64,000 nucleotides of DNA, taken from contig NC_089447.1 in the NCBI RefSeq assembly GCF_026210795.1, forward strand, positions 126,501 through 190,500. Reading direction: 5' to 3'. This document shows, one piece after another, positions 14,736-60,870 of the stretch (its first letter is position 1; each line of letters opens with the position of its first letter). This stretch comes from Rhizophagus irregularis (Eukaryota; Glomeromycota; Glomeromycetes; Glomerales; Glomeraceae). The position numbers and the translations under genes are program-made. The notes under the pieces are model-generated. The model was given only the letters and a program-made list of their open reading frames with translations, was not told the origin of the DNA and did not search any database.

Positions 14736-15233
14736 ATGAGCACTGCACCAAACAACTTAGATTTAGTGGAAGCTTTGCAATCTACGGGATGCAAATTATT
14801 CTATCAACCTCCAAACGATATAAATATTTATCATGTTACTTGTGAAATGGTTTTTCAATCGGAAAATTCTGTTTCCTGTGACGACGATATTTTTGATTAC
14901 GAGTTTTTTTATCAAAATTATCATGTTAAATGTAAATTATTATCGCATTATTTGGTTGTAAATATGTTGAATAAGGAGATTTATAATAGAGATTTTGATG
15001 CAAACGAGTTAAGACATAGGTATTCATTAACTTCTTATCAAAAATTAAATCTCGAACTAAATTTAAGGGAAATTCTTCCTCTTTATCTCTATATCCCAAA
15101 TGGATCTTTACATGGAAATACTGAAGGAAATGTGACGCCAAATCAAATTTATTCCGACAATAATGTGCCCGATAATAATTGTGTCGTTTATAATCATGTT
15201 ACAAATGAAAATGCTCGTCATCAACAACAATAA
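14736..15233 (+). CDS. YHVTCK family protein A (unrecognised family)
   Basis: An intronless frame of 165 residues. The start is the ATG after the A-run; the upstream in-frame codons are leader. The core, about residues 17-115, is shared with the genes at 22143, 42365, 42862, 49098 and 52985: KLFYQPPNDINIYHVTCEM, then DYEFFYQNYHVKCKLLSH, LNKEIYNRDFD, and TSYQKLNLELNLREILPLYL. The two YHV(T/K)C blocks resemble each other, pointing to an internal duplication. The tail of about 45 residues is Asn/Gln/His-rich and ends HQQQ. No signal peptide or membrane segment is visible, so a soluble intracellular protein is likely. The family is not known to me, so no function is assigned. A TATA box lies upstream. 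Confidence 0.85.
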   Translation: MSTAPNNLDLVEALQSTGCKLFYQPPNDINIYHVTCEMVFQSENSVSCDDDIFDYEFFYQNYHVKCKLLSHYLVVNMLNKEIYNRDFDANELRHRYSLTSYQKLNLELNLREILPLYLYIPNGSLHGNTEGNVTPNQIYSDNNVPDNNCVVYNHVTNENARHQQQ

Positions 15234-15709
15234 TATTAACAATTACTTAATATAGTATTTATATACGAATTATTTCTTTATTAAGAATTAGATAATGTGA
15301 TTTTATAGTCACTAAGTTTCCTAAATACTAAATTTGTGAAACCTTTTTTATCAAGAAAATTTAAGCTATGATAATAATATATTAGTTGATTTTATTTATA
15401 GATAATATTCAATACAAGAATTAATAAATTTTTTGAATTATGCTTTGATCTTAACTATCGTAAAATGTGTATATAATGATGTTAAATCGATAAATTTTAT
15501 TATCCATATAAATGTCCATTACGTTTTTATTGCGCGTCACAGGTCAAAACTTAACAAAGAGACATGAATTATGACATTAAGCTCCTCCTAATGAATTCAG
15601 CTCGATATTTATGAGACGCTTCTGTGAGTCAGGCTTTTGATAAATAAATAGTTCATGGTGATTAGTGTTTGGATGCAAGTTAATCATCTTTTTCTTCTCG
15701 AAATTTCGA

Positions 15710-15890
15710 TCGACACGCAACAGCTTATTTTTTTTTTTTTGATCAACACAAAAAAAAAACCAAGTTTGTTGCTGCTGCTTGTCTTGATCGACACAAAAAA
15801 AAAATCCAAGTTTGATTGCTTTGATCGACATGAAGAAAAATAAAAATTGCTGCTTCAAAAGATTGTTTATTTTTGATCGACAAGTAATTG
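15710..15890. repeat. GATCGACA / poly-A minisatellite
   Basis: Four or five degenerate units of TTGATCGACAC, then A(9-10), then CCAAGTTTG, with GTTGCTGCTGC interruptions. Low-complexity frames on both strands here are repeat products. Confidence 0.7.
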
Positions 15891-16179
15891 ATAAATTGAT
15901 TTTTAATTTAAAATTATTAAATGTATTACACTGGTTCGCTACGAAATTTATGATTTTTTTTTTTAATTTATAATTGTCTTTCCTTGAAAACATTCTATAT
16001 AAAATTAATAAAAATGAAAAAAATTTTTATATTACTAAATTGAAACTTTTATTTTCTCTTGTTTCATATGGTCTGGTTCATTTCACTGGCAATCATTTCC
16101 CAATTCACCTTATCCTAATAACCCTAATAATTTTTTTAACTCTTATCCTAAAATCCTTTGCCTGTCGACAGCGTTGTAC

Positions 16180-16470
16180 ATAGGATATGTCCCGCCAAAA
16201 TTTTAATGTCCGGAACAATGTCCCGTCTAAAAATTACGAGTAGTAAAATAACTAATTATAAATTATCATATCTCTGCCAATATTAATGTTAGAGATATGG
16301 AATTACTACTATTTGATTCGTCTTGATAAGACGAATTCAATGGGCTATTTATTAAAATTGAATCAGTAGTTAAAAAAATAACAAATTTAAAGGCACGTGA
16401 TTTTAATGTCCCAAATCCCAATGTCCCTGGTTTGGACATGCCCTGGACTGTCCTGTCCATGGACATGTCC
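16180..16470. repeat. Stretch rich in ATGTCC / GGACAT repeats
   Basis: TATGTCCCG, AATGTCCGG and AATGTCCCG recur at 16188-16230, and AATGTCCC, GGACATG and TGTCCATGGACATGTCC at 16395-16475. The two ends are partly complementary, as in a degenerate inverted-repeat element. Confidence 0.5.
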
Positions 16471-16599
16471 TGTCTCAATGACAACACCGCCTGTTGGCCT
16501 TTCGCTGAAACGTTTGTCGATGAGATAATTGTCGATGAAATGAAATGATTGTCGGTGAAAGAATGCGTTAATGCGACCTTTCATATTAATATTCAAATT

Positions 16600-17400
16600 T
16601 TCAAACCAATATACAGTAAATAATACAACACAAAATATTCCTAGTTTTATTATTTATTTGTTTCATTAGATTTTATTTTCTATTTGTTAATTAATTTATC
16701 ATTAAATTCATGTCGAATGCTTTATTTGTTTCATGTTTCGGCAAAATAAATATTTGTCAGTAACCATTTAAGACACTAACTATGTTAATTTAGCTTCTAA
16801 ACATTTATAAGTTCTGTTTAATTGACTTTTGTACATTATGAATGATTGTACAACTGTTTTTTTACATTGTATTCAAATTACTTTATACATTTCCCTTAAA
16901 AATTACCTACGTAAGAACGCGTGTTTGTTACACGATAATGGTGATCACATCAATTTTATATATTTAAAACACAAAAGTTGGATTTTAAAAAAATCATTTT
17001 TGTATGTATAAGCCTTGTTATTTCAAATAATGCCGGATTCAACTGCTTTCATGTAATTGAGTCAACTTTACGTTAGGATGTCAAGTTCCAAGCAATCTAG
17101 ACTCTGTAAAAAGAGTTTACACATGTTTTTTATTCATATTTCCTCGTAAATGCATCATATTCGCAGAATTTGCAATTTCAAACTTTGGAAATTATTCCGT
17201 GGAGGTTTACGGAAAATATGGAAAATTTTAATAATTTTTAAGAAAAAATTATCAGTTTCGGAAATGCCAAAGTTTACTATTATACATACAGTAATGATAA
17301 AATCCATTTTAAGATAAGCGATTAAGATTTTCTATGACTTATTGAGTATAACATATAAATACATATAATTTCTAAATCGAAATTTTTAATTTAAGATGCC
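16600..17400. other. Intergenic stretch, no gene seen
   Basis: AT-rich. A 60-codon plus-strand frame at 16829 has no recognisable pattern and is not called. Confidence 0.4.
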
Positions 17401-17412
17401 CTGCTAAACTTG

Positions 17413-17535
17413 CTAAATATCACCGCTGGTGATTGTTACCTTACCAGAATTAGGGTAGAGTTTTGGGCGGAATTAAAATGTCATGAAACTCCGCCCGCTA
17501 ATATTTGCTAATGCTGGTGTGGTGATGATCACCGT
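17413..17535 (+). repeat. Dispersed repeat, inverted copy at 45632-45762
   Basis: Contains AAATATCACCGCTGGTGATT, ACCTTACCAGAATTA, and ATGAAACTCCGCCCG. The complement of 45632-45762 has the same blocks in the same order. The two ends hold ATCACC/GGTGAT palindromes. Confidence 0.75.
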
Positions 17536-17879
17536 GCGGTGATTTTTGACATTTTCAACATAAATAAAGCAATTTATAATCACAAAAAGTGAAATAAAAA
17601 CCGGATCAATCGTTAACACTATACAGTGATTATGGAGTAGATAAAATATCCCAAATTGCATACAATTCCCAAATCCGAATTTGGGGATACGATCGGATTC
17701 TTAATTCTGGCCGAAATTACAATTTGATCAAAGTTAAATCAACAGATCAACAATAAAATTTATCACAATCACTGATTTGCAATTTCCGACTTCCGATCAT
17801 CATGCACGATATGTGGCGCAGTTGCGATTTAGTTTTTGGGATAAAGAGGAGGTTTCCCGGGTACATTTTCTCCGAGTTC

Positions 17880-18480
17880 ATTCATTACTTATTTTAGATA
17901 GACGCTATTAATTTTCTCCTGCACCTATTTCTTTCATGATTTTGGCGTATGATAGACAAAGCTTCTCCTGCATATCTCATTCATAAATTACTTGTTTTGG
18001 GATCGTACTAATTTCTGATATTGGAATTATCTCTTTCATATATTCCGACGTGAAAATCTCTTTCAATATATTACTTATTTTGGATATATTAACTTTTGCA
18101 CATACATTCTTTATCTCTTTCATATAATTTGGCGTACGATAACGAACTTCTGGGCGTCTCTTTAATATATTACTAAGTTTGGATCATTAATCATTTATCT
18201 TTCTTGGCGTGCATTAACGACACATATCTCTTTCATAAATTGCTTAGTAAGGATAGCTTATTTGCCCTTTTATATAATTTTGCATACAGTAATGAAACAA
18301 CTCCTGCATGTCTCTTTCATATATTGCTCAGTTTATATTATTTACTTACCTATTTTGTATAATTTTGGCTTATGATAATGAAACATCTCCTGCATATTTC
18401 TTTCATATATCTCTCAATTCGGATCATAAGTTTACCTTTTTCATATTTTAACATACAATTATATCATTCGTTTACACATT
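17880..18480. repeat. Minisatellite, about 105-base unit, five or more copies
   Basis: Degenerate units carry CTCCTGCATATCTCTTTCAT, ATATTACTTAGTTTGGATCA and ATAATTTTGGCGTATGATAA in the same order. The downstream end is clearest (18300-18440). Complementary, related blocks occur at 41480-41850. Confidence 0.7.
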
Positions 18481-18589
18481 TTTAATTTTTCACCTTATTT
18501 TGTGCACGAATCAGATTAAGATAATCTAGTGACGTGTTAAATTGAAAATATAATTGTGGAATTTGCCTATAATTTGTCCTTACTGACCT

Positions 18590-18745
18590 GATAATGTATG
18601 GATAATGTCTGAAATATTCATATTCCGGCACATTATCCGGATATTTCGAAATATTCATATTTAGGTAAATTATCCGGACATTTCAAAATGACCGGAATAT
18701 TTTATGTTTCGGTACATTATCCGGACTCAAAGTGTCCGGAAACTT
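18590..18745. repeat. TCCGGA-containing short repeats
   Basis: CACATTATCCGGATATTTC, AAATTATCCGGACATTTC and TACATTATCCGGACTC follow one another at roughly 60-base spacing. Confidence 0.65.
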
Positions 18746-19475
18746 TCACGGACGTTTTCTAAACATCGGACATCATCATTGCAATTTCCGAACATCTCTT
18801 TTTTACGGAAAAAAATTGATCATTTTCAAAACAACTTTGATTTTGCATTCAAAGAGTTTTAGAAAGCATAATACGGAATATAGAGAAGCCAAATACCAAG
18901 AAATATTCTCGTTATTCCTTATTTATAGTTAAACCAATTCAAGTACTTCGTCGTATAAAGCCGATAAAGTTGTATCCATCTGAATATGTGGAGTAGCAAG
19001 AAGTAGAATATGTAATGCAAGGATTTTATAAGTTTTGATTTGGTTTGAATAAAAAAAAAATTCCACACAAAGGTTTTTTTTTCTTTTTTTTCTTTTGTAT
19101 TTTAATTAGATTAAAATTATTTCAACATGCTATTTTCCATAATGAAAAGTATGAAAGGACTAGATTAAAATAAAAATTTAAATTTACCGCACAATTTTAA
19201 CATAACGTATTCTGATGATTTTTTTTCCAGTGCTAGATACAACAATTTATTTAATCGCATTGCGAAATGATTAAATAAACTACTAAATAAATTCAACGAT
19301 ATTTTATATTAAAAAAGAAACTATTAGATATTTATATGAAAAAGCAGATGATCAATTCCATATTCGACATAAAATTCTTGATAAACAAATAAAATTTCTA
19401 AATTTGAAATGTTGGGATGAAGATGATCTACAAATTAATCATCGTTAAATCACATGATGACGAAGAATAAGTATT
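18746..19475. other. Intergenic stretch, no gene seen
   Basis: AT-rich with A- and T-runs. Nothing recognised. Confidence 0.4.
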
Positions 19476-19564
19476 AGTTATTTACTAATCTAGTAGTATA
19501 TAAATGGGTTATCATCCGAAGGATGATGGCCCATTTATATACTAAACTAGATCAGTAAATAACT
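19476..19564. repeat. Long palindrome, 42-base arms
   Basis: The left arm opens AGTTATTTACTAATCTAGTA and ends TGGGTTATCATCC. The right arm is its complement with three or four differences, and only GAA lies between them. A second perfect palindrome, TCCGCCAGTTTATAACTGGC (then GGA), follows at 19592-19614. Extreme foldback potential; possibly a fold-back element. Confidence 0.85.
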
Positions 19565-20159
19565 TTTTTATCATCCTAGATATACTAATTGGTCCGCCAG
19601 TTTATAACTGGCGGAAAAAATCCTAAATACCAATTAGTAGCCAGGTGATAATAATTTTTTATCGCATGAAACAACTATATTAGTATATTGGATAGCAATT
19701 AATTATAGACAAAGAAATGTTTTGAGCAATTTCCTTAAAAATTCGGGAGAACGATTATCACGATCAAATAAATTTGAAATTAATGCGCAGTAAGGAGTTG
19801 TAAATTTTCGATGAGATGACAAGTTTAAAACGTAACGTAACCTTTCATTTTATTGCGTATTCACTTACTGACTTCGCTTTATTTATCGACATAACATTCT
19901 TCTGAATGAAATTTTGCCTTCTTTAAAGTTTTTTTGAAAGATATCCTATGTATTTATTATATATAATTCATTTTAAATATTATTGAAATTTCTGGATAAA
20001 AAACTTTTTCACAATTAACGAGATTTAACTTATTACTATTTGGGGTTGAACTGACGAAACTTATGCTAATAAAAATTACTTGGTGCCATACAGAGCTCAT
20101 TATATCAGAATTTAAGGCTTGAATAAGGTGTAAAGCGAGGAAGTATGAAAATTCAGCAT

Positions 20160-20949: not shown

Positions 20950-21026
20950 AATTCAGCATGTATGATTTTTCTTTGCGAGATTCGCGTAGTCAATATATGT
21001 AAACGTTAATTACTTAGTATACTATT

Positions 21027-21148
21027 GGGTATTACTAAATATCACCAATGGTCACGTGAATTTATGATGTAATTCCGCCCAGTATTTTATTAAATTTTTT
21101 AATTCCGGCCAAAAGTATCATAATGTATGGTGAACTTTAGTAATACCC
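21027..21148. mobile_element. Small inverted-repeat element (122 bases)
   Basis: Left end GGGTATTACTAAATATCACC and right end GGTGAACTTTAGTAATACCC are complementary over 20 bases with two mismatches. A tiny MITE, related at its ends to the AAATATCACC blocks at 17413 and 45762. Confidence 0.75.
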
Positions 21149-22088: not shown

Positions 22089-22142
22089 ACCTATTCCCAT
22101 CGAAATTTTTTTTTTTTTAAAAAAAAAAGGGGGGACGAAAAA

Positions 22143-22772
22143 ATGAATACGAATACTACTATTACTTCTAATCCAGAAAACAAGGTTTCAATTCAAACTA
22201 TGCAAAACCATCAAGTTTTTCAATCGAATGAACTTAGATTATTCTATCAAGCACCAAATGATGATAATTTTTATCATGTAACTTGTAAAACGATTTTGCA
22301 AGATTCTATTTCCTGGAACGATGATGATTATGATTACGAATTTTTTTTTCAAAGTTATCATGTTACATGTAAATTATTATCACATTCTTCAATTTTAAAT
22401 ATATTGAATAAGGAAATTTATGGAAGGGATTTCAATTTAAATGACTTCAAACAAAAATATTTATTATTAACTTCACGACAAAAGTTAAATCTCGAAACAA
22501 GCTTAAAGCAGATTCTCCCTTTGTACCTCTCGCAACATCCTATTCCTGACGAAGAGACGAGACTAGATTACGATAAAAGTTTAGATTCTTCTCACGATAA
22601 AAATATTGAAAATAATATTATGGTGACTCAAGGATATTCAACGGTTAACAGCCAAAACAATTTCGACAATAGCTGGCAACACAATGATTATAATTCTCAA
22701 CAAGATAATGAAATTTATACTTATGTCGATCATTCATACGATTTTCCTCAATACCCAAATATCCAACAGTAA
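22143..22772 (+). CDS. YHVTCK family protein B (unrecognised family)
   Basis: An intronless frame of 209 residues from the first ATG after the homopolymer leader. The core, about residues 32-135, is the clearest copy in the window: RLFYQAPNDDNFYHVTCKTI, YDYEFFFQSYHVTCKLLSH, ILNILNKEIYGRDF, and SRQKLNLETSLKQILPLYL. A variable tail follows (residues 140-209) with DEETRLDYDKSLDSSHD and then Asn/Gln/His/Tyr-rich sequence ending YPNIQQ. The tail segment EETRLDYDKS matches KDTRTDYSRS in the member at 49098, so part of the tail is conserved too. There is no signal peptide and no membrane segment. Function unknown; a soluble, possibly nuclear protein with a low-complexity tail is a guess only. Confidence 0.9.
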   Translation: MNTNTTITSNPENKVSIQTMQNHQVFQSNELRLFYQAPNDDNFYHVTCKTILQDSISWNDDDYDYEFFFQSYHVTCKLLSHSSILNILNKEIYGRDFNLNDFKQKYLLLTSRQKLNLETSLKQILPLYLSQHPIPDEETRLDYDKSLDSSHDKNIENNIMVTQGYSTVNSQNNFDNSWQHNDYNSQQDNEIYTYVDHSYDFPQYPNIQQ

Positions 22773-29008: not shown

Positions 29009-32000
29009 CTATGTTTTACGGCGCTTTGAGGCACGTCCGTTAGTCTTAATCTCTCCTTTAGTATGAAAACCTTTTCTATTCTCTATACACATCTCACATA
29101 GTGGATAAATTTGTTTGAAACGCTGTTTCAAAGATTCCGGAGGTGCCACCAAACCTTCACTTTCTCCACAATAGTAACAAATTGGATAATTTCCTGATTT
29201 ACGGCTTGAATAATACAATACTTCAATTGGTGAGTCACAATTGATACGTGTTCGTACAAACACTACTTCTTTCAAGTAGTGATCATCAGGAAAAATTGGT
29301 GCACCGCAGGAGTATGAATATGACTCTAGTACTTGTTGAAAATCTTGTTGTTCGTCACTATTCAAGAATTTGTCACTATACACACAGCGACGCTTTTTAC
29401 AATCTTCACAATCAATATAACCACGGATTTTCCCTACAACTAGAATAGATTTTGGAATAGGTTCTGCGTTCGCCTGTGATTGCATATATGTTGGTCTATA
29501 TTCTTCGGTAGTTCAGTTCCATAGACACTTTGAAAAGCCGCGTAATGGTCAGTATTCTCTATTTTTTAAAAGGGAGTTTATATGTTGAATTACATTAAAC
29601 TTATGAAATAACAATTGATATTAAACATACAAAATAATAATTAATAGATACCTTGCGAAGGGATCGGATCTGGAAGAAAACTCAAATCATGAAATTCTTG
29701 TGAAGGAAGACGAATTGGTTTACAATATGGACAAGTAGGATTATTGCACTTTTTTATCTTAATGTCAATGGAGTATATTAGGGGGGATAATAATATCTTT
29801 GGCAATTCTGCTTAAAATATTTTAAATGAATTTCACTATAGTCATCACAAAACCTGAAAACTATAGGCGCGCGCATGGCAATGAGTATCCATAAATTCAA
29901 TCAATGCAGAATGACGACGTATTTGCGATTGTGTGGTTTCGTCAATTTTCAAAGTGGGGTCTATAACAAAAATTGACTTCTCAAAATAATAAATAATATT
30001 AATATCAATTTGCATTTCAACAGATAGAATTTCATGGTGTATATAGTATTAAATTTTGTGGTTATAAAAGTTTAATTCAATAATAATATTTATTATCATA
30101 CGAAATTGATTATTACCTCAAATAATTTAGTAATTATTTCTTCACTTGCTGATCCATGACATTTGAATTTCTTATCTTTTAATACTAGCCGTTCTGTTCG
30201 ATTATTTAACATGTCTTGAATATTTGCTATACTCTCTATTAATTCAGAATTTAATTCATTAAATTCTTGAGCCTTTTTACGTATATCATCTAAGGTATTT
30301 GCCGTTTCAAACAAAGCTTCAGATTCAGGACTCATCTGATTACGCTTAAGTGCTACACCTTGTAAACCCAAATTCAAGATACTCATAATACGTTCAGCTG
30401 GATTTGTCCAGCTATGATTGGGCACAGTGCGAACTGCAATGAGCATGTCAAAATCCCCCTGTAGAAAAAGAGCAATCAATGCAATCTGCACAGATCCATA
30501 ATTGCATCGATGATCCGGCCCTCCATCAGTATAAAGGCATAGTATTGGTGGCGTTACTTGATGTTCATATTGGATATTAAGTGCATTTAAAAACTCAGTT
30601 GAATGTCTGATGGCAGAACTTGGCTCAAAGGTTGTATCTTTATAAGATACAAAAACTTGACCATCATAAAATGATCCAAAAATATCCTCAGGGATTGATA
30701 TGAAAAACGTAACTGATGGTGTTAAAGATAGCTTTGTGAAGTCATGATCTGCAGCAGCCAATGTACTATTTTGATCCACCATAGAGCGCCGGTTTCATAC
30801 ACCTGTAGAAACTGCAACATCTTCTCCAATAGGAACTTTATGTTTGTCATCTGCAGAAATCAAACAAGTCCACTGATGGTACTTAATGCAATATTCTCTA
30901 AGATACCGGAAAAGTGCTGCACAATAATGTGCATCATCACTATTTTTCTGAAGCAACCGACCTTGTACCTTAAATTTTACGTTGAATCGACCAGTGTGAT
31001 GTATAGATCGTGTTGCAATAGCATTTGTAGGGCAAAACTGTAGGCGGATCCATTCTTCTGATGGAATATGAATAGTAAAAGGAAGAGGATTACCATGGAT
31101 GATATATAATTTTTCCATTATTATTTCACGAAGATCACGAACAGATAAGGCTAATGGCATGTATAGAATAGTTTCATGTCTCCGTTCATCTACTGCAAGC
31201 AAGTTCTATTATTAATTCCAAATAAAATAATTTTATTATTTTTAGTGAATTAGAACACTTTATAACAAATTAAACAATAGAAAGTCCAACCTGTTCATTG
31301 AAATATGCTTCTGTTTCATCCCAAAATATATTAAATTTTGTTCCATCAAAACCATTATTTGTTCGCAAATCAGATATAATGGTGGGATCTGCCAAAGTTA
31401 ACATCAATTGTAATCTCTCTTCTACTTCACGACTGATAGAATTTGAAGATACGGCAGCATTACCAGTGAGATCAAAATGAAGCATACGTAGTACAGCTGG
31501 TGTAACTTTCTGAATGTACGAATACTATAAAAATTATTATGAGTGAGATAAAATAATATATTTGTTAAACATCTATTGCATTATTTTTACCTTATTAAGC
31601 ACATTCTTTTGCATTTGTCGTGTAAAATAATGAGGTAAACCTTCGTGAATCCTAGCAAGCATTCGTACTTTCAACGTTTCATTTTGTTCATCATTAAATT
31701 CTTCAGCTTCCGGAATTTTCCATACAAAATTAATGGTTCCCAAATGACTGCCTTGATGATACCTAAAAATGATAAATAATTATTATATAAATTTATAATG
31801 TAAATAAATTAATATAATGTTATAGATTTATATTTGAACCTATATATGCCTATTGGGAACATGAGCTGCAATTCTTTTATAAATCAGTATCTTTTCATAA
31901 CATCATTTGGAAGATATTGCTGAATGTTAACATGTTCATAAACTTGTTTTTCAAATAAAAGATTGTTCAGTTGTTTATATTTATCTTTGAGGTTATCACG

Positions 32001-32888
32001 TTTACAAGCAGCAGTCCGATACATAATACAGTTATTTTCAGGACCGCGAGCACTTTCATCACAATGGTGATGCTTGGTCATAATAATAGTAGCTTCATTT
32101 AGATACTGAACATATTTTTCCAGAATTCCAATTAGCGAAAGAATTGCTGGAACTACTTGATTCCATATATCATTACTTGCCCATGGTTGACTAATAGATA
32201 ATCCAAGAGAACTTGAAAGTTGAAGAAGTTTATGTTGTGACAATTGAATTTTTTTATGATGACCGGAATGGTAATATTGGTTATATGTATCACCATCTTG
32301 ATAGGTTTTCAGTTGTGTGAAAAGGATAGGCAAGTGACATGAACGTGCATTTAATGTGGAGTGATGTGGATCAATATACCAGATTGCATCCTTAATACGA
32401 TTTACAAATATTTTGCCAATCGTATCGTGCACACCACCCATCCAGCCAACTTTTAGATCTTGAAGAAGTTCGATAATTTCATTATAAAGTTGATCACAAT
32501 TATTATATTCAGTAATACGTTGAGGAAGTAAAAGTTTTCTTGAATTTTGCATTAAAATGCTAAAAGCACTTTCTCTATTTTGAGTCGGAATAGGAATATC
32601 TTGTGTATTTAAATTTGACTCAACAAAACAAAATTTAACTCGCAAAAACCCTAAAACTTCTAGTATTTTTAAGTCTCCTTTTAGTCCATTATCAACTTCT
32701 CGCCAGTTTTCAGACTTTTCTTGTCTAATAAAAATTTTAACCTCCCTATCGTTATATTGTCCTAATGTTATTGCATCAAAAAGGTCAGAAAATTTATTAT
32801 CTATGGCTTCTATACTCACTACACGTTCAGAAATAACACACTTAATACTTTCATTAACTTGAACCAAAAGATAAAGCATATTTTGCAC
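29009..32888 (-). pseudogene. Large DDE transposase with Cys-rich C-terminus, broken
   Basis: Exons on the minus strand: 31840-32888, 31591-31762, 31276-31524, 30117-31205, 29854-29960, 29652-29757 and 29009-about 29560, with GT..AG introns of 60-90 bases. Likely catalytic residues sit in LISADDKHKVPIG, LCLYTDGGPDHR and WTNPAERIMSILN (D, D, E). The C-terminus has zinc-binding pairs (CEDC, CYYCG, CEMC). Three lesions: a stop after DVMKRY (31884-31886), a CGA-to-TGA-type stop between STGV and NRRSMV (30795-30797), and a frame change near 29505 before YMQSQANAEP. I know this protein type as a repeated one in glomeromycete genomes but cannot place its superfamily. Dead as it stands, but only lightly decayed, so it is a young copy. 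Confidence 0.8.
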
Positions 32889-33097: not shown

Positions 33098-36000
33098 TAG
33101 GGATGGGGAAGTTCCCGAAATGAGCGGTTCGAACCCAGTTTAGAACCAAGAACTGAACCGGACCTGAGAACCGGTTCAATTCTCTAGAACCGAACCCTCC
33201 GGTCTGAACCATTCGGTTCGGTTCAGTTCGATTTGTTAATACATGTGCCGATCAATAATTTGATCATAAATTTATTATAGTTATCCTATAAAAAATTTTA
33301 TCCGTTATTTCTGTAAAAATTCCGTAAAAATGAGCCTTTTACGGATCCAATGATCCATTCACTGAAAATGTAAATAACGATAAATTCCGGGATATAAGGT
33401 TATTATTACGTTATTTTGTATCATGCCGGAATTACATAAAATCGAACAATATGTAAGTAATGTAAATCTTATAGTTTATTTGATTACATAATCGTTATAT
33501 TTACGTTGATCCGATACATACTTTATTATATTTTTGCTATATATTTTTATATGTATTCGTTATTAATAAATATAACACTAAATTAATAATTTTAAATAAT
33601 TTATAAAAACATTTGAGTATTTGAACTTAATTTATGAAATTAATTCTATCATACGTACAAACAGTACAAAAAATTATATAAAAATATCTATAAAAATATA
33701 AACGGAATTATCCGTGAGAAATTGATTTTATCATGAAGATTGAATTCTAACTATGACAAAATTCCGGATCATAATTCACAAAAAAGTAAAAATTGATAAT
33801 ATATATTAATATAAACAATGTGATGATTAACCTAAAAAAGAATCTACTTTCCTTGTGTAATAGCCGATAACTGGATTATTCATAAATAAATACTGATGAT
33901 CTAAGAATAATATTCTCTTTTCGGAATGGACGTTCTGAAAGAATGTCAAGCGACGAAGAATTCAACCCCAACCAAGAAAATCTAGAAGAATATGACACTG
34001 AAGAGTGGGAAGGTTCTGAGGAGCAAATTTGTTCAGAACTTAGTGATTTGGACATATCAAATACGTTAGGAAGTACCGTATAGTTATACTTTGATAAGAA
34101 CCCATCATACACACCAGGCTATAATGTCTGTAAAAAGTGTTCACATAGATATAAAATAACAACGGGTGTTAGTACTTTACGAAAACATCTTAATAAACAC
34201 CAATTACGAGCACCTACGAAGAAATATCAAGTCTTGACTAAAAAAGGCGTTCCTTTCAACTATGATGAACAAAAAATTCACGATAAATACCTTACCAATT
34301 GGTTGATATGTGATCTCCAGCCCTTTACTGTTGTTGAAACTCATCATTTTAAAGCATTTCTTAATTTCTTTTGCCCAAATTATATCATTCCTGACCGGCA
34401 TAAGGCAAAAGGTATTAATTTATCGTGTAAAATCTTTTAAAAGGCATATCTAATTATCTTTCTATTTAAATAGATTTCATAATCGATACATTTACAGCCC
34501 AAAGAAACACAGTTATTGGCGAACTTCGTAAAATTACAGGGAAATTCGCATTAACGGCAGACATGTGGACGTCTACTATAAATCAGGAGGCATTTTTAGG
34601 AATCACGATTCATTATGTAGATCTTGATTGGAAACTCCAGAACTTTCTTCTAGATATCATTCCTTTCAAAATTAGGCACACCGGAACAAATATTGCACAA
34701 GAAATAAAGCGCACCTTGGAGGAGTTCAATATTTTTGATAGAATTATCGCGCTCACGACAGATAATGAGTCCGCTATGATAGTTTGTGGAAGAGAGATAG
34801 CTTTAACTATAGAAGACGAAATTTCTTCCATGACTTTTTCTCATTGCCGATGCGCTGCACATGTCCTAAATTTGGGCGTACAGGAAGGATTAAAACTTAT
34901 TAATGATTCTGTTAAAAAAGCGCGTAAACTTATGAAGAGTATCAAAAATTCAACTCGCTTGTGTGATGAACTTCGTCTCCTATGTGATTTAAAGAATATG
35001 AAATACCTTAAACCTCTTATTGATATAGTTACTCGCTGGAACTCGACCTTTTATATGCTAAGATGGTTGGAAGCACTTGAACCAGCATTAGTCTTACTGG
35101 TAGCTGATAATCGATCAATCAGTATCTATTATCCAAATGATGATGACTGGATTGCTATCAAAGTAAATAAAACCATTTAAATAATAAAATAATTTTTATT
35201 CAATTTTCTAATATTACTTCCTTTACCTTTAAACTAGGATACACTCTTACTTCTTGAACTCCTGGAAAGAGCTACCAAGTATTTATCTGCATCTTCCTAT
35301 CCAACTATAGGAGAAACTCGTTTTATTTTTTCAGGAATCCAAGCACATTTAATAAAATATATGGAAAAGGAAACTTTTACTCAACGTGATATGGCATCTT
35401 CAATATATAGGAAAATTCGACAATACTGGATGATTATGGACGAATCTTCAATAATTTCTGCAATTGTAGACCCTCGAAATAAACTTACAGTCTTCCCAGA
35501 AGAATCAAGGTTGAATGCTCTCAGGCATATCCAAGCCATATACAAGATTTACAAAGAGCAATTCACACCTACGAATACAGTGCAATATGCTTCTAATAGC
35601 AAACGCCAGTATTTTTTACTACTCCAACAAGAAAATGAAGTAGACCGAATTAATGAAGAAATGTTTACTTCAACAATAGAATTGGAAGAACTGGATCATT
35701 ATCTCCAATTACCAGTTGATGTGGGAACTGACCCTCTTATGTGGTGGCAAGCGCATTATAACGAATTTCCAGTTTTATGTAATATTGCGCGAGATTTTCT
35801 CCCTATTCAAGCAACTAGCGTTGCATCAGAGCAAGCATTTTCGGTTGCTGGAAACACAATTACTAAAACCCGAAATCGTTTGTTACCAGAGACAGCAAGA
35901 GCATGTCTGTGTGTGAAAAGTTGGATGGATAAGGGTTTGATTGAATAATAATTAGTAATTTTTATATTGAATAATGCTTTAAAAAAAACATTATATTAAT

Positions 36001-42364: not shown

Positions 42365-42745
42365 TTAAATATAAAAAAGAAGATACTGCTTCAAATTTAA
42401 TTCAAGATTTAATTTTTGATGCGCAGTTAATGATATATAATCCTGGTCTAAATCATTTACATCAAAACCTATTCCATAAATTTCCTTATTCAATATATTT
42501 ATAATCAAAGTGTACGATAATAATTTACATGTAACATGATATCTTCCGTTCGAGCTCTCGCAAAAAAATTCGTAATCGTAATCATCATCACAAAGTTGTT
42601 GTAAAATTTCTTTACAGGTTACATGGTAAAAGTTGTTATCATTTGGTGGTTGATAAAATAATCCAAATTCGGCTTGCGATGTTGATTGATGGTTCTGTAT
42701 GGGCTGAATTACAGCCGCTTGGTTTTCTGAGGCATTCATGTTCAT
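42365..42745 (-). CDS. YHVTCK family protein C, short tail
   Basis: A 126-residue intronless frame. Core: FGLFYQPPNDNNFYHVTCKEI, then DDDYDYEFFCESS, YHVTCKLLSY, INILNKEIYGIGFDVNDL and AHQKLNLELNLKQYL. The second half-motif carries a four-residue insert (SNGR) that makes it look more like the first half-motif. The tail is missing: the protein ends right after the core at LFYI, where genes A and B continue with a low-complexity segment, so it is either a short variant or freshly truncated. It lies 116 bases downstream of gene D on the same strand, a local tandem duplication. No clear TATA box was seen. Confidence 0.8.
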   Translation of the reverse strand: MNMNASENQAAVIQPIQNHQSTSQAEFGLFYQPPNDNNFYHVTCKEILQQLCDDDYDYEFFCESSNGRYHVTCKLLSYTLIINILNKEIYGIGFDVNDLDQDYISLTAHQKLNLELNLKQYLLFYI

Positions 42746-42861
42746 ATTTCTTTGGGGAATTGTAACGAAAGTTTCTGTAACGCGTGTGTTACTGCTGTAG
42801 TGCAGATGATTTGAGCGTTAAAAATTTGATATTCATTACATTTTCATTTCTCAGATAAATT

Positions 42862-43236
42862 TTATACGAACCTTTTTATAATTTGATATTGTAGAAAAAG
42901 AAAGTTCTCTTTCAAGCTCAGTTCGAGGTTTATTTTTTGATTAGAAGTTAATAAGGATTTGCGTTTCAGGTCACTCATATCAAAATCTCTTCCATAAATT
43001 TCCTTATTTAATATATTTACAATAAAGGAATATGATATTAGCTTACATGTAACATGATAATCTTGGTGAAAAAACTCATAATCATAAGTATCATCCATAG
43101 TTTTTTCCGTTTCCGGACCTTGAGAAATTATTTGGCAAGTTATATGATAAAAATTATCATCATCCGGAAGTTTATAAAATAATCTAAACTTGTTCAAATT
43201 TTGATTCATCGCAGTCAAAGTAGTAATAGTATTCAT
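42862..43236 (-). CDS. YHVTCK family protein D, short tail
   Basis: A frame of 124 residues from the Met of MNTITTLTAMNQ. An in-frame Met 18 codons upstream gives a basic leader that family members lack, so the inner start is preferred. Core: KFRLFYKLPDDDNFYHITCQI, DTYDYEFFHQDYHVTCKLISY, IVNILNKEIYGRDFDMSDL and SNQKINLELSLKENFLF. It ends soon after the core (IIKRFV), so the low-complexity tail is lost as in neighbour C. A TATA-like box (minus strand TATAAAAT) lies at 43373-43380. Function unknown. Confidence 0.8.
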   Translation of the reverse strand: MNTITTLTAMNQNLNKFRLFYKLPDDDNFYHITCQIISQGPETEKTMDDTYDYEFFHQDYHVTCKLISYSFIVNILNKEIYGRDFDMSDLKRKSLLTSNQKINLELSLKENFLFLQYQIIKRFV

Positions 43237-49097: not shown

Positions 49098-50117
49098 TTA
49101 AATTAAAAAAAATTGGTGATGTGGAAAATTATTATGTTGTTGCTGCGGCGAATAAATACAATTTCCAACTTCACTTCTTGGCAATTCATTATTCTCATAA
49201 CTATAAGTTGATCTCATTTCTTGTGAAATATTGTTTTGATCAACTTCTTGTTGATGTTGTTGATGTTGTTGATGTTGTGGATGCTGTGGATGACTTGTTT
49301 GAGCAATATTATTATTATTAGGTGACAAAATAAAGTCACAATTCTGATTGGTAGTATCTTTCGACCCATTATTCTCATGAAATAAATTTGTATGTCGTTG
49401 TGTGTAACCACCATTAACAGGGGCATGATCATCGCTTGGGAGAAGATAATACGGATCAACTTGTTGTTGATGAGTGTAATCTCCAATTGCATCTTGAGGA
49501 ACATAATTATTATAACCAACGTTGTTATAATTCATATGACTATCTTGAAATAATGATATTCTCTCAGGAGTATGTTGTGGCGCTTGTTGCTGTAGATGAT
49601 GATCATTTGGAATATTATTATCGAGTTGTTGATTATTATAGGTACCATTTTGTTGATGATGTAAACCATTATCAAAATGAGTTAGATTATCTATTACTAA
49701 AGTTGCTGAATTATGATCACGAAAGGAGTTGATACTTCTACTATAATCTGTTCTCGTATCTTTTTCAGGAACATGAAATTTCATAAAATGTGAAGGAAGT
49801 ATTATTTTTTTCAATTCTTGTTCAAGATGTAATCTTTGGTTTAAATTTAATGATTCACATTTCAAAATACTCTCATCAATTTCAATACCATTTAATAGAT
49901 TTAGAACTGAAGCATGTGAAATCAATTTGTACATAACATAAAAATTTTCATTTAAATGTTCATAAAAAAATCCACGATCGTCATAATCATAATGATCATT
50001 CAAATTGGAATCTTGCGGAATTTTTTTACATTTTATCAGATAAAAATTGTCATCATGTGAAGTATGATGATAAAATTTATATTCATTATTAACTTGTAAA
50101 GATAATTTGTTTGACAT
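49098..50117 (-). CDS. YHVTCK family protein E, long Gln/Asn/His tail
   Basis: The longest member, 339 residues, intronless. The core is divergent: YKFYHHTSHDDNFYLIKCKKI, FFYEHLNENFYVMYKLISH, SVLNLLNGIEIDESIL and LNQRLHLEQELKKIILP. Here the two half-motifs are plainly alike (FYHH...DDNFYLIKCK and FFYE...NENFYVMYK). Then KDTRTDYSRS, matching gene B, and about 220 residues rich in Asn, Gln, His and Tyr, including a run of HQQ repeats near the C-terminus (codons around 49245-49290). Such tails are typical of disordered regulatory or phase-separating regions. TATA-like sequence at about 50176-50187 on the minus strand. Function unknown. Confidence 0.85.
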   Translation of the reverse strand: MSNKLSLQVNNEYKFYHHTSHDDNFYLIKCKKIPQDSNLNDHYDYDDRGFFYEHLNENFYVMYKLISHASVLNLLNGIEIDESILKCESLNLNQRLHLEQELKKIILPSHFMKFHVPEKDTRTDYSRSINSFRDHNSATLVIDNLTHFDNGLHHQQNGTYNNQQLDNNIPNDHHLQQQAPQHTPERISLFQDSHMNYNNVGYNNYVPQDAIGDYTHQQQVDPYYLLPSDDHAPVNGGYTQRHTNLFHENNGSKDTTNQNCDFILSPNNNNIAQTSHPQHPQHQQHQQHQQEVDQNNISQEMRSTYSYENNELPRSEVGNCIYSPQQQHNNFPHHQFFLI

Positions 50118-52984: not shown

Positions 52985-53407
52985 TTAATCTTGAACCGTT
53001 CCTACTATAATTTCATCCGTTTCTTTTGAGACGCGCAGATAAAGTTCTACCATTAAGCTTTGTTCGAGTATGTATTTTTGTGACGGAGTCAATGGTGGCT
53101 CGTTATATAGTGTATTCACATCATACTCATAATTCAATAAGTCTAAAACTGCGGAATGAGATATAAATTTACATCTTACATAATAATTTGTTGTCAAGTA
53201 TTGATAAAAGAATTCATGATCGTACTCAAGATTGTCATCCGGATCGTTATGATCATATGACAAATCATCTCGAACAATTTTGAAAGTTACTAGAAAAATT
53301 TTTTCAAAAATTTTTTCATTTGTTGAGCTATGATAAAATCTTCCTTTAATAAGTGGCCGACGTTGCACAATTGTCGCAACTGTTGTTTGGTTAATAGAGG
53401 TAGACAT
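52985..53407 (-). CDS. YHVTCK family protein F (divergent)
   Basis: 140 residues from MSTSINQTTV; an in-frame Met eight codons upstream is less likely, because the decayed copy at 60606-60870 begins at the equivalent of the inner Met (MFTSSVT). Core: IKGRFYHSSTNEKIFEKI, EYDHEFFYQYLTTNYYVRC, KFISHSAVLDLLNYEYDVNT and TPSQKYILEQSLMVELYLR, ending DEIIVGTVQD. The first half-motif has lost its YHVTC signature, while the second keeps YYVRCK. A TATA-like box lies at 53487-53494 (minus strand). No membrane segment. Function unknown. Confidence 0.8.
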   Translation of the reverse strand: MSTSINQTTVATIVQRRPLIKGRFYHSSTNEKIFEKIFLVTFKIVRDDLSYDHNDPDDNLEYDHEFFYQYLTTNYYVRCKFISHSAVLDLLNYEYDVNTLYNEPPLTPSQKYILEQSLMVELYLRVSKETDEIIVGTVQD

Positions 53408-55288: not shown

Positions 55289-55715
55289 ACTGGTCGAAGT
55301 AGGGGGATGTGCAATACATTTACACTAGAGAAATTTTATATACACGTCACATTTCAAATTGATTTACCAGTAATTTCAATTAATTCCAATTAAAGTGTAT
55401 ATTAAGGAAATTTGTTGTAAACTTGTCCAATTTCCATGAAGTGTATATGTCATTTGAAATTTACAAGTTTCTATTATATAAATGTATTTTAAATTGTGAT
55501 AAAACCTTCTTTATATATCATTTAAACTTATAATACATTAAACAGAAATTTTTTATGATATAAGAAATGTTAATGAAATTTCGCTCATATTTGCAAATAT
55601 ATAGCTAAAATATTAACAATAAATACAATAAATTATTATAAATTTTATATAAATTTTATGTATATTATAATGAAACTTCACTTCTATTTAAGAATCATAA
55701 ACTTCGTAGCCACGC

Positions 55716-56930
55716 TCAATTAAGGCAATGTATTACTAGACCTACACTAAAGATGACTTTAGCAAGGCTTTCTTTGTGAATTAAAAGAAATTTCATACAC
55801 TTTGCCAGCTGGTGAGAAAGCCTATGATCTCTAACCTCAAACTTCTTTTCTACAAGATCCCTAAACATTTGATTCAGAGACCTAGACCATCTAAAAAAGA
55901 GAAAATTGAAATGTTAGTAAAAACATTTCATTGAAATGCATAATTAGAAACAAATCTCACCAAGTTTTCACGTGTTTAAAAAGTCAAAAAACCAACCATC
56001 TGAAAAAAGAAAGATGATGAATATTAGTGATCATTCTTTGTTAAAAGAAAAATTAAAGAAAAAAATTGAACTTACGAAATCCATGTTCAAAAATATCTCT
56101 GGATACCAAAGAGCAAGTCATCTATAAAAGAAAAAAAAGTTAGTAATCATTTTTTAATGTCAAAGAAAAAAATATCTTACCGAAATCAGCCTCCAAAGAG
56201 CTGAAGACTTATCCAAATAAGAACGAAAATGAAGTTGTTAGGTTAATATTATATTAAAAAAAAAGTTTAAGAATATAAAAAAAAAGTACACCATAACCTA
56301 CGTGTCTAAAGATCCTAATGAAGCCGTCTAAAAAACTGAATTCATTAAAAATAATTTAAAAATCACTTTCCCTTTTTTTAAATTAAAAAAAAGAACTTTA
56401 AAAAAAGAATTATCAGAAGTCCATGTGTCAAAAAAATCCACGTTAAAATGAGAGAAAAAACTTCATCTTCCATTAACAAAATTCTGCTTCAAAGATCCAA
56501 AGTACCATAAGGCTAAAAAATAAAAAAAGAAAAATTTCATTAATAAAATTCTTTTAAAATAGGTTTCTTAAAGTCAATTCTGAATTCAAATAGCTTACCA
56601 AAGTCTGGAAATACAGAACCTATAAAGATTAAAAAAAGAAGCGTCAGACATTTCTTACAGATAAATGACGAATTCCTCTCAAAAGAAATAACTCACTATC
56701 CAAAAGTCTTCCACAGACAAGTCATTACCTACAAAAAAATAAAAAAAAAGGAAATTTAGTATGTTCCTCATAATTAATGGCGAAATTCTTTTCCCAAAAA
56801 TTTTACTTACTGTCCAAAAAGTCCCTCCAGAGAACATTACCTACCAAAAAAAAAAGAAGGAACATTTAATACATTTTTTATAGAAACTTTTTCCCCAATA
56901 ATCACCAATCGTCTGAAGATTCTCTGTTAC
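55716..56930 (-). CDS. Candidate micro-exon gene inside the CACTG element
   Basis: The minus strand shows a regular series of acceptor-exon-donor blocks. Exons (transcription order): 56906-56930, 56811-56840, 56697-56728, 56599-56619, 56506-56512, 56302-56327, 56181-56207, 56076-56121, 55972-55999 and 55716-55890, that is 25, 30, 32, 21, 7, 26, 27, 46, 28 and 175 bases. All have AG before and GT after; most donors are GTAAG or GTGAG. Joined, they stay open for 138 codons. Micro-exon products resemble each other (LWRDFLD, VEDFW, LYFQTL, IRIFRH, LWRLIS), as if one exon-intron unit had multiplied. The last exon is the most convincing: SLNQMFRDLVEKKFEVRD, HQLAKCMKFLLIHKESLAKV, ending VIHCLN. The 5' end is not resolved; the frame at 57233-57466 (MESGPILSCV) may belong to it. 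The 7-base exon and two donors were chosen to keep the frame. No family recognised. Confidence 0.45.
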
Positions 56931-57721
56931 CTTTAAAAAATTAAAAAGAAAATTTTAATACATTTCTAATACTAATAATGAACTATTAAAACAAAACTAA
57001 CTTGCCATTTATTTTAATTTCCAGTTCTTGTTTTATTGTAAAGTATAATTTTTACTTTTGTTTTCTTCAAGTCCAGCTATCATAGGCTTGGAAAAAATTT
57101 TATGAAAAATAATAAGAAAAAAAAAGAAAATTATAGTAAATAACGATAAAACAAAAAAAAATTCAAAAAATTGATAAAAATAAAAAGAAATCACCTAAGA
57201 GAGCACTATTTGCGAAAATGTTCAGTTGAACTTCAACTTTGAGCCATTGGAATTATTTGTTCATTTCCTTTAATTTTTGTCAGTTGTTCATACCAATAGC
57301 TCATTGATGTCATTGTTGTGAAAAAAAAATTAATGAAGGAGAAAGAGGGAAAGGAATTATGGGAAAGAACAAACTTTTTTTTTAAAGAAAGATTATCCGT
57401 CATTGAACTGCGCCTATCAGTTATTATATCATGTGATACACATGACAAAATAGGACCCGATTCCATTTTGAGGATTGATATAACATAAACTATTTTAACT
57501 ATTTTAACTATTTTTAATCACGAATAAACTATTTTTTAATTTTCTTTACATTTTCTTTTATACTCTTCAAAATAATAAACTGCAATTATGGTTTTTGATG
57601 CTTGGAATATGTTCAACTTAACCATCACAAAATGACACAAATAGCAAATACAATAATATAACATTAATTATTATTTCTCACAAACATTCTAGATTTTTTA
57701 ATATAAATTGACTTGAGATTA

Positions 57722-57870
57722 TTAGAGGTCATAAGCTTTCTCACCAGCTGGCAAAGTGTATGAAATTTCTTTTAATTTCACAAAGAAAGCCTTGCTAAAG
57801 TCATCTTTAGCATAGGTCTAGTAATACATTGCCTTAATTGAGCGTGGCTACGAAGTTTATGATTATCTCT
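57722..57870. repeat. Inner inverted repeat arm copying the last micro-exon-gene exon
   Basis: The complement of 55690-55843 with only a handful of differences, including one extra T that would shift the frame. It contains CTTTCTCACCAGCTGGCAAA and GGCAATGTATTACTAGACC (complement). The match is far better than that of the outer ends. Confidence 0.85.
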
Positions 57871-58219
57871 TTGCTTTTTTTTGTAATTTTGTAATAATAT
57901 AAATTTTGTTTTAGTATAGCAAAATTTCAATAATAGTAAGTAAATGGCTTGTTGCAAATTTAATATCATATTTCAAGTAAATTTCAAGCTATTATATGCG
58001 TAATAAACATTGATATTAAATTTAATTAAAATTTATTTAGAATTTATACATTATAATTAGCGAATTAGTTTTAAAATCATAAAATTTACAATAAATTTTA
58101 CCCGTTTCAATCTATAAATTAAATTTGATGGAGATTTCTTAAGCGTAATTGAGATCAACAAATGTATAAGCTATTTATGGGCAATAAACTTCATGCAAAT
58201 CATCCCACTTCGACCAGTG

Positions 58220-58999
58220 AATGTAACAATTACTACCGTAAAGTTCTGTATTTTTCTATGTAAATACTAAATAGTATCCATTCTGGATTCGAAGAAGTTT
58301 TAAACTTTTGTATAATGTAAATATGGAATATGAATGATATGTAATTATTGCAGAATTCTGTGTACGTTGCAGGTCAATTATAGCTGGTATCGTCCTGTTA
58401 CAGGACTCCTGTAATTAAGCAATTCGTATGGGGTAGCACGATTCTGAAAACAATGATAAAATTTGCAAGAATCTGAATTCAAATTTAAATTGAAAAAGAG
58501 CGAATTTGTCATATAAATTCATTTAAAAATTAAAATGTTTTTTTTTTAAGGGTTTTATTGAATATTAATGTAGGTTAAATTTAAAATTAATATCGTGAAT
58601 AATTGTTGGATTATTTTGGCCATAAATTTCGTTTTATTTATATATTAAGAAGTAAATCTAGAAAAGTAGGAATATTGTAGTTCATCTTTATAATTTTTTC
58701 AAGGCCATAATTTATTACATAAAGTTGACTAAAGTACCCCATAGTATTGTATCATACTCATAAATTTGGTGCAGAAGACCCGGGTATTATACATGAAGAG
58801 TTCATTGTATGTAATTTGTATGGTACCCGGTATTATTCATAAATTAAATATAACCAGCCCATACTCAACAAATCTTGTACTCCTTCTTAGACCAAAGTAC
58901 CCCTAAAGTATAGAACTCCTGAATTGTATTATACCCAGGTATCTTAGCCAACCGTTTACGATAAGTTAAATAACTCAATGTGATAACGCACATTTTTTG
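58220..58999. other. Intergenic stretch, no gene seen
   Basis: AT-rich. ACCCGGGTATTATACATGAA and ACCCGGTATTATTCATAAA at about 58789 and 58827 are short direct repeats. Confidence 0.4.
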
Positions 59000-59134
59000 T
59001 TAAACATGTAAAGTAGAGCTTTGTAGACTAGATTTCTTTTTTTTTCGTTGTGGAGACAATGGTATCTCGTTATTATAGTACGTATTTAAGTCAAATCCCT
59101 ATATATATTAATCATGTTGGATTAAGATAATTTT
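59000..59134 (-). pseudogene. YHVTCK family fragment
   Basis: The minus strand reads NIYRDFDLNTYYNNEIPLSP then QRKKK and a stop, preceded by a broken equivalent of the KLLSH...LN block. This corresponds to the NKEIY-RDFD-N and SYQKLNLE part of the intact members, closest to the style of gene F (DVNTLYNEPPLTPSQ). No start, half-motifs missing. A dead copy. Confidence 0.6.
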
Positions 59135-59629
59135 AAAGCATTGGGACAAGCTTCGTTTGTTTTTTTAGAATATTAAAATTATTTAAATTTATTTTATTAT
59201 CGAGTGAACAGGAATCAGTGCAGACTGCGTAAAATAGTACATGATTAACCAACCCGCTGGTAACCCAACGGGCTGGTGGAAAAATCATTTAAATTGAATC
59301 ACAGTTCACAGGAAACGTGGTTTTTTTCGTTCGAAATTAATCGCATGATACAATTAATTTCATTGGCTATTCGTGTTGATTTACCCGACACTTTTCTGCC
59401 CCACGTGATTTTTGTGATGCTTTTTGTGTAACATTTATCTGAGAAAAATTTTAATTGCAAGTTTTTTTCGCTTCTCGCACTTTTAAAATAATAAATAAAA
59501 AATCACATTTTCATATTTTATAGTTTAAGTATAAAAAATACTAAAATTTTATGTTTTTAAATTTAAATTATTTACTTTCTATAAAACAATAAAAATACGC
59601 TTTATTGATAAAATGATAAATAATACCAA

Positions 59630-59800
59630 TAACCGACACCTAAATAAATATAAAAAATGCGTGTCTCATAATAGATATAATAAAACAAGTACAATAAATA
59701 ACACTTAAATAAATATAAAAATGCGTGTCACCTAATTGATATAATAAAATAAGTACACCTAAATGAATATAAAAACGCGTGTCATTATGAAAAAGTTAGA
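59630..59800. repeat. Tandem repeat, about 60-66 bases x 3
   Basis: Units carry ACACCTAAATAAATATAAAA, a GCGTGTC block and GATATAATAAAACAAGTAC, starting near 59635, 59700 and 59756. Confidence 0.8.
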
Positions 59801-59888
59801 GACAAGTATTAATTTTAAGTTTCATATAGAAATTTTTACATATTAATTACATTAATTAGTAATAATATTTAGAATTAATTTTACATTC

Positions 59889-60104
59889 ACCTCTGGTGAA
59901 TTTCACCGAGACATGATTTACATTATGCTTTATGCATAAATTTAATAAATTTTACGCCTGCTAATAAAATATAATTCGGAAAGATTTTTGATTATGGTTT
60001 TTTTTACTTTTTTTCAAAAATGAAAAATGAAAAATTTTAATATAGTAATTATAAATCACGTAATATATTGAAAATCACCCCGGTGAATTTCACCTCCGGT
60101 GAGT
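59889..60104. mobile_element. Small element with CACC/GGTG ends
   Basis: CACCTCTGGTGAATTTCACCG at the left is matched by GGTGAATTTCACCTCCGGTG at the right in inverted sense. About 215 bases; no coding frame. Confidence 0.55.
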
Positions 60105-60605
60105 ATTAAAATGATCCTAATATTTATTTATAGAATACTTCACAAGACGAATAGGCAATGAATTTTATGTAATTAATATATAGTACAAGTGAATAGATTA
60201 CATAACCTATCAATTTTTTAGAGAAATATGCAATAAATATTTCCAAATATCCATTATATCACTTCTAAATAGGTTAAAGAACAACTTTCACTATTAAAAA
60301 AAATAATATAAATACGTAACCGGTTCTTAACATTTTTTATTTAAAAAAATGAATTAAAAAAAAAGAAATACTAATAAAAAAGTTCGTAATCTTAAAGAAA
60401 AAAGAAAAGAAAAAAATGAAAAGTTCAATCATTCAGCACGAAATCCAGTGGAAATGGCTCCGTTCATATGCAAATTCCTAATAAATTCCTAATCCAAATA
60501 ACACAGTCTTTGTTAACATAGTGATAAGCGTGAAATAATATTATTGCACTTCCACGTCTAAATCGTCTAATGGTATATCATTTAGATTTTAATCTCGTCC
60601 GCTTC

Positions 60606-60870
60606 TTATGAAAACCGTAAATAAAACTTTACAAACAAGCTTTCTTCAAGACTTAATTTTTGTTGTGGGAATAATGCTATCTCTTTAATTCGTGTATTTA
60701 TATCAAACTCCTCACTATTTAATAAATCTTCACCCGTTGAGGATTTTCTTGAACTAATTTATAAGCTATCAAAAAATCATTTGGTGTACTATGAAAAAAT
60801 CTCCCCTTAAAAGCAACCGACGTTGAATAATTTTTGCGACCGGATAAATAGTAACTGATGAAGTGAACAT
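60606..60870 (-). pseudogene. YHVTCK family pseudogene, relative of gene F
   Basis: The N-terminus MFTSSVTIYPVAKIIQRR then LLLRGDFF aligns with MSTSINQTTVATIVQRRPLI of gene F. One frame change gives FFHSTPNDFLIAYKLVQ; another gives EDLLNSEEFDINTRIKEI and FPQQKLSLEESLFVKFYLR, matching LDLLNYEYDVNT and TPSQKYILEQSLMVELYLR of gene F. The second half-motif (YDHEFFYQ...YYVRCKFISH) is missing between the two. At least two frameshifts plus an internal deletion. Confidence 0.75.

Follow-up and report, generated by a model that had tools for sequence, protein, structure and literature searches.

A 64,000-nucleotide stretch of the genome of Rhizophagus irregularis, an arbuscular mycorrhizal symbiont of plant roots belonging to the glomeromycetes, carries several copies of a gene family built around a core of about 100 residues, which has no name in Pfam, NCBIfam, PHROGs or the PDB sequence set searched here. 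Within this stretch (the window; G000:C19:126501-190500), six open reading frames (ORFs) carry one common core, two on the plus strand at 14736 (c14) and 22143 (c22), and four on the minus strand at 42365, 42862, 49098 (c49), and 52985 (c53). The copies are, with very little room for doubt, coding genes of one family, and this family is tentatively viewed as a large fungal one of the birth-and-death type. Judging from composition, conservation, and predicted structure, we propose, at a probability of roughly 0.45, that its products are intracellular, probably non-enzymatic binding proteins, with disordered arms that would help assembly.

All six window cores were matched by a family profile, with independent E-values (i-E) of 1.9e-39 to 1e-17. 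Because this profile was built from members including four of the six window cores, cross-tblastn represents a fairer check of the common core, and it agrees. Invariant columns across the six cores include D, F-F, V, K, S, L-N, Q, L-E, and L positions. The first-pass annotation of this DNA, which described six open frames with a shared core and placed all copies from 42 to 61 kb on the minus strand, was accurate in both respects. It also listed two decayed copies, of which one, at 60.6 kb, is clearly a relic: two pieces in different frames (60627-60743 and 60734-60808) match the profile of the c53 subfamily (E 2.5e-12 and 4.7e-5), and the c53-type genome search recovers the same relic as C19:187082-187240, with two stops. 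The other, at 59,000, shrinks to a trace of about 21 residues, for which no tblastn match was obtained at E ≤ 1.

The family extends far beyond the window. Across the 146,748,485 bases and 32 contigs of the genome searched, for which all match counts are lower bounds, c22 as query yielded at least 109 matches (E ≤ 1e-3), a core of clade I (one of two major clades, see below) at least 99, and a C22-type core at least 100. The union of these three queries, counted from 308 rows, comprises at least 163 domain segments on 23 contigs, of which 147 are free of internal stops in one search or more, and 16 contain a stop in each search in which they appear. Adding 19 rows chosen from the 70 of a c53-type search brings the catalog to 171 segments, 148 of them stop-free, a tally in which broken relics may count twice. 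The eight copies originally reported thus understate the family. These segments are also strongly clustered: with clusters defined as three or more segments separated by gaps of <150 kb, 12 clusters contain 125 of the 163 segments, compared to a mean of 10.3 and a maximum of 28 in 200 trials of random placement. The biggest clusters are found at C25:2.54-3.20 Mb (38 segments) and C19:141-749 kb (36 segments, or 44 including c53 rows). Local amplification, as first suggested, therefore accounts for only part of the picture: the window lies at one edge of this C19 cluster, and 11 further clusters are located elsewhere.

Comparisons of substitution rates indicate that these copies are maintained by selection. 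The ratio of non-synonymous to synonymous divergence (dN/dS, hereafter omega) was <1 in 31 of 32 independent core pairs, with a pooled value of 0.41 (Nei-Gojobori counts), and not near 1, the value that the first-pass annotation had named as evidence against such a family. Pairs were chosen greedily by lowest synonymous divergence (dS) up to 0.9, and include two within-gene A/B pairs and a few deep cross-subfamily pairs; domain matches <25 bits and duplicates had been removed before pairing, which left 76 entries. Similarly, omega ranged from 0.12 to 0.46 in all 30 comparisons between the six window cores and their nearest fetched relatives, many of them with dS near or above 1. Measured to the five nearest relatives in the sample, the values were 0.13–0.28 for c14, 0.19–0.27 for c22, 0.21–0.40 for c49, and 0.27–0.46 for c53. 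Since omega is <1 in nearly all core comparisons, the copies are best understood as coding genes kept by selection. The disordered parts of alignable pairs displayed a pooled omega of about 0.52 (an approximate value, one row, L009, pairing a frame with itself), along with many indels and large length differences, and the tail of L022, the one member examined for repeats, includes a 126-base (42-codon) in-frame repeat present in 3.3 copies with a 92% match. Taken together, the core is under purifying selection and the disordered arms change faster, also by in-frame tandem repeats, so that the earlier description of the family as fast-evolving suits the arms and fits the core less well.

The window genes had initially been labeled as intronless, which is not supported for the pair of frames at 42.4 and 42.9 kb. 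These are best read as the two exons of a single two-domain gene, so that the window includes five genes carrying six domains. Adjacent same-strand frame pairs, in the same or different phase, were identified at eight of the loci fetched. Each of these has a phase-2 donor (AG/GTTYGT) just after the first domain (A) and an acceptor 76–103 bases on, and splicing at this acceptor opens the frame of the second domain (B) without a stop. With dinucleotide shuffles of the eight gaps, the number of such introns was 0.03 per shuffled set, with a maximum of 1. For the window pair, an alternative in-phase acceptor would shorten the intron to 77 bases. Six of the eight B frames have no in-frame ATG before the domain and hence need the splice, while those of the window pair and L002 carry their own in-frame ATGs and may be translated separately. 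The eight loci are related, and thus do not represent independent events. A two-domain protein is further supported by L009 (contig C17), in which both domains are found inside one continuous frame. Finally, the B domains of L010, L011, L020, and L028 form one branch (100/99), and L020, L028, and L010 align across both exons, which shows that the A/B pair was copied as a unit.

Analysis of the core showed an internal duplication, with two tandem copies of a beta-hairpin-plus-helix unit of ~32 residues followed by a C-terminal helix. A half-vs-half profile comparison (hhalign) returned a probability of 98.5 and a score of 58.3 over 32 columns, and none of 200 column shuffles of the halves scored as well (maximum 17.6). 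In clade I, both halves include an aromatic strand, a P-P-N-D-like turn, a Y-x-[IV]-x-C strand, a Ser, and a helix with L-N-K; in the clade II cores of the window, an acidic loop is mostly found in place of the first helix. The fold predicted from the six window cores (E-E-E-E-H-H-H) consists of two hairpins followed by three helices, the second of them short and the last, at the C-terminus, long, with a predicted local distance difference test score (pLDDT) of 74.7 and a predicted template modeling score (pTM) of 0.63, compared to 58.3 and 0.48 for an earlier full-length model. Across 65 cores, the fully conserved columns were one Cys and three Leu (65/65 each), followed by aromatic and Asn positions, and no catalytic-like acid/His set was found among these fully conserved columns. 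Strongly conserved columns also include D12 and E119.

Searches for known relatives support the original view of an unrecognised family. The six window proteins yielded a single weak row against Pfam-A (24736 models), namely SMC_Nse1 (E 0.019, 15.3 bits vs. a cut-off of 23.3). When 65 members were scanned singly, 29 Pfam-A families were obtained at E ≤ 1, none in more than three members, and the top row (TRAF_BIRC3_bd, two members, E 0.00043) was discounted because scanning 65 members can yield such an E-value. For the same members, NCBIfam returned eight families (best E 0.00099) and PHROGs three (best E 0.005), each in one member, and the best match to PDB sequences had an E-value of 0.44. 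The fold comparison proposed in the first-pass annotation was similarly negative: Foldseek searches with the core model gave 0 of 266 matches in PDB and 0 of 533 in BFVD at E ≤ 0.001, and all Z-scores in a structure comparison against 994 chains were <5 (best 4.0 for the second model and 3.4 for the first), although an absent structural match does not demonstrate a new fold. Literature searches, including peptide words of the family, found no paper on it, and as the returns were mostly off-topic, this is weak evidence that the domain is unpublished.

An origin from an endogenous giant virus was also considered, and is not supported. No viral relative was found in BFVD, in PHROGs, or among IMG/VR contigs scanned with c22, where none of 46 pattern matches was confirmed, a scan whose reach is limited to close relatives. 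A viral region of 1.5 Mb has been described on chromosome 8 of strain 4401 and is missing in four other strains (PMC10640383). The C8 cluster of the family (G000:C8:1265179-1375470) ends near coordinate 1,370,742, the giant-virus insert site reported for strain 4401 in the same source, which concerns another strain and assembly, and the proximity may be a coincidence.

A tree of 65 of the 75 distinct domains (the 65 that are under about 90% alike) and two window cores, midpoint-rooted and based on few columns with a bootstrap that had not settled, splits the family into two clades of 22 and 45 rows (100/100), which differ in architecture. In clade I (22 rows), the domain is located at the C-terminal end, mostly behind a low-complexity head. 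In clade II (45 rows), it is found near the N-terminus, either on its own, followed by a long tail, or in two copies. c53 and six short C19 genes are grouped at 100/100, and close relatives of c53 (55–59% identity) were detected only on C19, with ten long matches including c53 as well as broken ones. c49 is placed with the long-tail group, on a long branch, and c14, c22, and the 42-kb copies fall into an unresolved basal group. Long-tail and c53-type genes were also evaluated as a linked pair on C19, and this was rejected: a c53-type copy lies within 8 kb of four of the 15 long-tail genes, against a random mean of 4.04. Two loci on C19, L003 and L015, include frames that stop early while DNA similarity to their sister genes continues for hundreds of bases, consistent with either decaying tails or tail introns.

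The long tails are of unusual composition. Across 12 tails of ≥150 residues, N+Q reached 27.0%, K was limited to 1.1%, and the N to K ratio was 15.8, in a pool that includes L009, whose tail holds the second core and contains 12.5% N+Q. The c49 tail contains 27% N+Q, 1.3% K, and 9% H. By composition, these are N/Q-rich disordered segments as in prion-like proteins. The low K content suggests a selected tail composition, since AT-rich coding alone would be expected to raise K as well as N. Upstream of the genes, CACGTG was examined as a shared promoter motif, as it occurs in 8 of 55 upstream stretches (250–300 bases) vs. 0.62 in shuffles. It was rejected because the motif is common everywhere here: the 64-kb window has 20 occurrences, 30,390 bases of upstream sequence have 12, and 91,588 bases of genes plus downstream sequence have 24. 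Given the AT-richness of the genome, CACGTG is over-represented in the window, since each of the 23 remaining palindromic hexamers containing four G or C occurs there 0 to 17 times, against 20 for CACGTG.

Because the conserved columns look structural and include no catalytic-looking set, the core is interpreted as a docking module. Under a docking-plus-assembly mechanism, which is possible yet short of an even bet, the folded core would dock on a partner, be it a further family copy, a protein of the cell, or a nucleic acid, and the long arm, poor in K and rich in N/Q/S/T, would supply weak, many-point contacts through which the proteins may gather in assemblies. Many diverged copies would then provide many binding specificities. 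Several observations weigh against the overall interpretation of the family. Tail-driven assembly cannot be common to all members, since neither clade I nor c53-type genes carry a long tail. One core pair had an omega of 1.32 (1 synonymous and 6 non-synonymous changes), and the fold model was derived from six sequences, with two of five models at a pLDDT of 54–55. A crude scan for stretches resembling a nuclear localization signal found none outside the core, and only two among 76 entries within it, so that a nuclear role is not supported.

This last result also bears on an unlikely alternative, in which the family members would be nucleic-acid-binding regulators, with the two hairpin-helix units contacting DNA or RNA and the N/Q-rich arm serving to activate or condense. 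Many transcription and RNA factors combine a duplicated hairpin-helix core with an arm rich in N/Q, and the top and recurring Foldseek row is the LAGLIDADG homing endonuclease I-DmoI, but only at an E-value of 0.55 and a template modeling (TM) score of 0.37. Beyond the lack of significant structural matches, the core has no marked basic character (K 7.0, R 2.1, D 6.4, and E 6.8%). It is more doubtful still that the products are host-directed effectors, diversified by duplication and secreted without a classical signal peptide. A clustered, many-copy, diverging family in a plant symbiont would suit such a role, and Glomeromycotina-specific disordered repeat effectors do exist (SP7 family, PMC11333574), yet SP7 proteins themselves have a signal peptide according to the same source, and 64 of 68 starts here include no hydrophobic stretch (hydropathy below 1.6 in a crude scan, not SignalP), the four mildly hydrophobic ones that reach 1.6 all being c53-type.

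A role as self/non-self or nucleus-identity factors appears slightly less probable again. Here, a variable recognition core would be joined to a prion-like arm, which would nucleate assembly upon meeting a different variant, an outline reminiscent of fungal amyloid-signaling pairs. The arms bear repeats and vary in length, and the clusters contain relics, as fast-turnover loci do. However, a death- or NLR-domain partner did not turn up, in an analysis that included no search aimed at one. The most elaborate version, in which constantly renewed clustered genes would form an identity system of an arbuscular mycorrhizal fungus, mixed assemblies would decide hyphal or nuclear tolerance, and the core would be an undescribed fold, is a long shot. 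Least probable of all, parts or remains of a mobile element without host function would explain the many copies, the decay of several (the 16 segments noted above), and the hAT genes nearby, but not the purifying selection, the introns conserved in 8/8 loci, the lack of element genes in the reading frames, or paralogous alignments that continue from the gene into its near flanks, those listed having no sharp ends in common.

Table 1 Family members, exons, and relics in the window.
Feature	Position	Strand	Details
Gene c14	14736..15233	+	165 aa; core 14790-15077 then short tail; profile i-E 1.1e-34
Gene c22	22143..22772	+	209 aa; core 22227-22520 then 80-residue tail, 25% N+Q; profile i-E 7.5e-39
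Exon 1, putative two-domain gene	42872..43236	-	Domain A 42901-43194; ORF 42862-43236
Predicted phase-2 intron, 80 bases	42792..42871	-	Donor AAAAG/GTTCGT, acceptor GCAG/TAAC
Exon 2, putative two-domain gene	42365..42791	-	Domain B 42380-42670; ORF 42365-42745
Gene c49	49098..50117	-	339 aa; core 49800-50087 then 229-residue tail; profile i-E 6.9e-19
Gene c53	52985..53407	-	140 aa; diverged core 53042-53344, no tail; profile i-E 1e-17
Possible c53-type trace, weak	59036..59098	-	~21 residues; E 0.041, c53 subfamily profile
Decayed c53-type copy	60627..60811	-	Frame broken; tblastn and c53 subfamily profile

The family members in the window (Table 1) are accompanied by other elements. The transposon neighborhood described in the first-pass annotation is supported by a hAT element at 35.4–35.9 kb, within transposase remains (34563-35948, plus strand) that include a C-terminal dimerization region (PF05699, E 2.3e-22) and a frame split into two ORFs. 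Three minus-strand ORFs at 29012-32879 (158, 228, and 331 aa) had no Pfam match at E ≤ 0.01 and resemble parts of an unclassified mobile element. At 1719-4774 (plus strand), a broken or multi-exon gene has a hydrophobic end and a start that weakly resembles WD40 (best E 7.6e-5, under the cut-off), and may be one of the ion-channel-like genes whose expansion was described by Manley et al. (PMC10234402). Its middle part has 106 genome matches (E ≤ 1e-4), mostly in long open frames; judged by eye these are scattered genome-wide, and this neighboring family was dropped as a candidate part of the core-family clusters.

Overall, well over 100 genes of this fungus, a model symbiont of most land plants, are built around a domain unrecognised by Pfam, NCBIfam, and the PDB sequence set, and naming this domain would annotate all of these at once. 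The family is one among many unexplained expanded families in such genomes, but its duplicated core of hairpin-helix units, its conserved intron, and its clear division into subfamilies provide handles for structure, expression, and strain comparison.

Among known systems, the LAGLIDADG fold (alpha-beta-beta-alpha-beta-beta-alpha; I-DmoI, PDB 5o6g) leads the Foldseek list and similarly combines paired beta-hairpins with helices. The superposition has a root-mean-square deviation (rmsd) of 5.7 over 83 columns and is at chance level, no sequence relation was found, and the core model is of middling confidence; the family is not filed under LAGLIDADG here. The sheet of the protein kinase N-lobe (Wee1 3bi6, GSK3, GCN2) superposes on the two hairpins and a helix (Z 4.0, rmsd 2.2, 54 aligned), but only core residues 3–60 fit, at a Z-score <5, without a kinase motif or C-lobe. 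SP7-like effectors, as described in the portions of PMC11333574 drawn on here, also form several R. irregularis paralogs, disordered and of low complexity with imperfect repeats, and are not named as a general domain. They differ in being almost wholly disordered, with a signal peptide and five core members, whereas the present family includes a folded core, lacks a recognisable signal peptide, and numbers >160 segments. Manley et al. 2023 (PMC10234402) reported that genes restricted to the lineage arose in a burst and that young regions occur along the chromosomes, and neither the core domain nor the family is named among these Glomeromycotina-restricted young genes in the corresponding parts of that paper. 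As a system, and in a form that we have not previously seen described, the family is thus of a known kind, that of the expanded young-gene families in such fungi.

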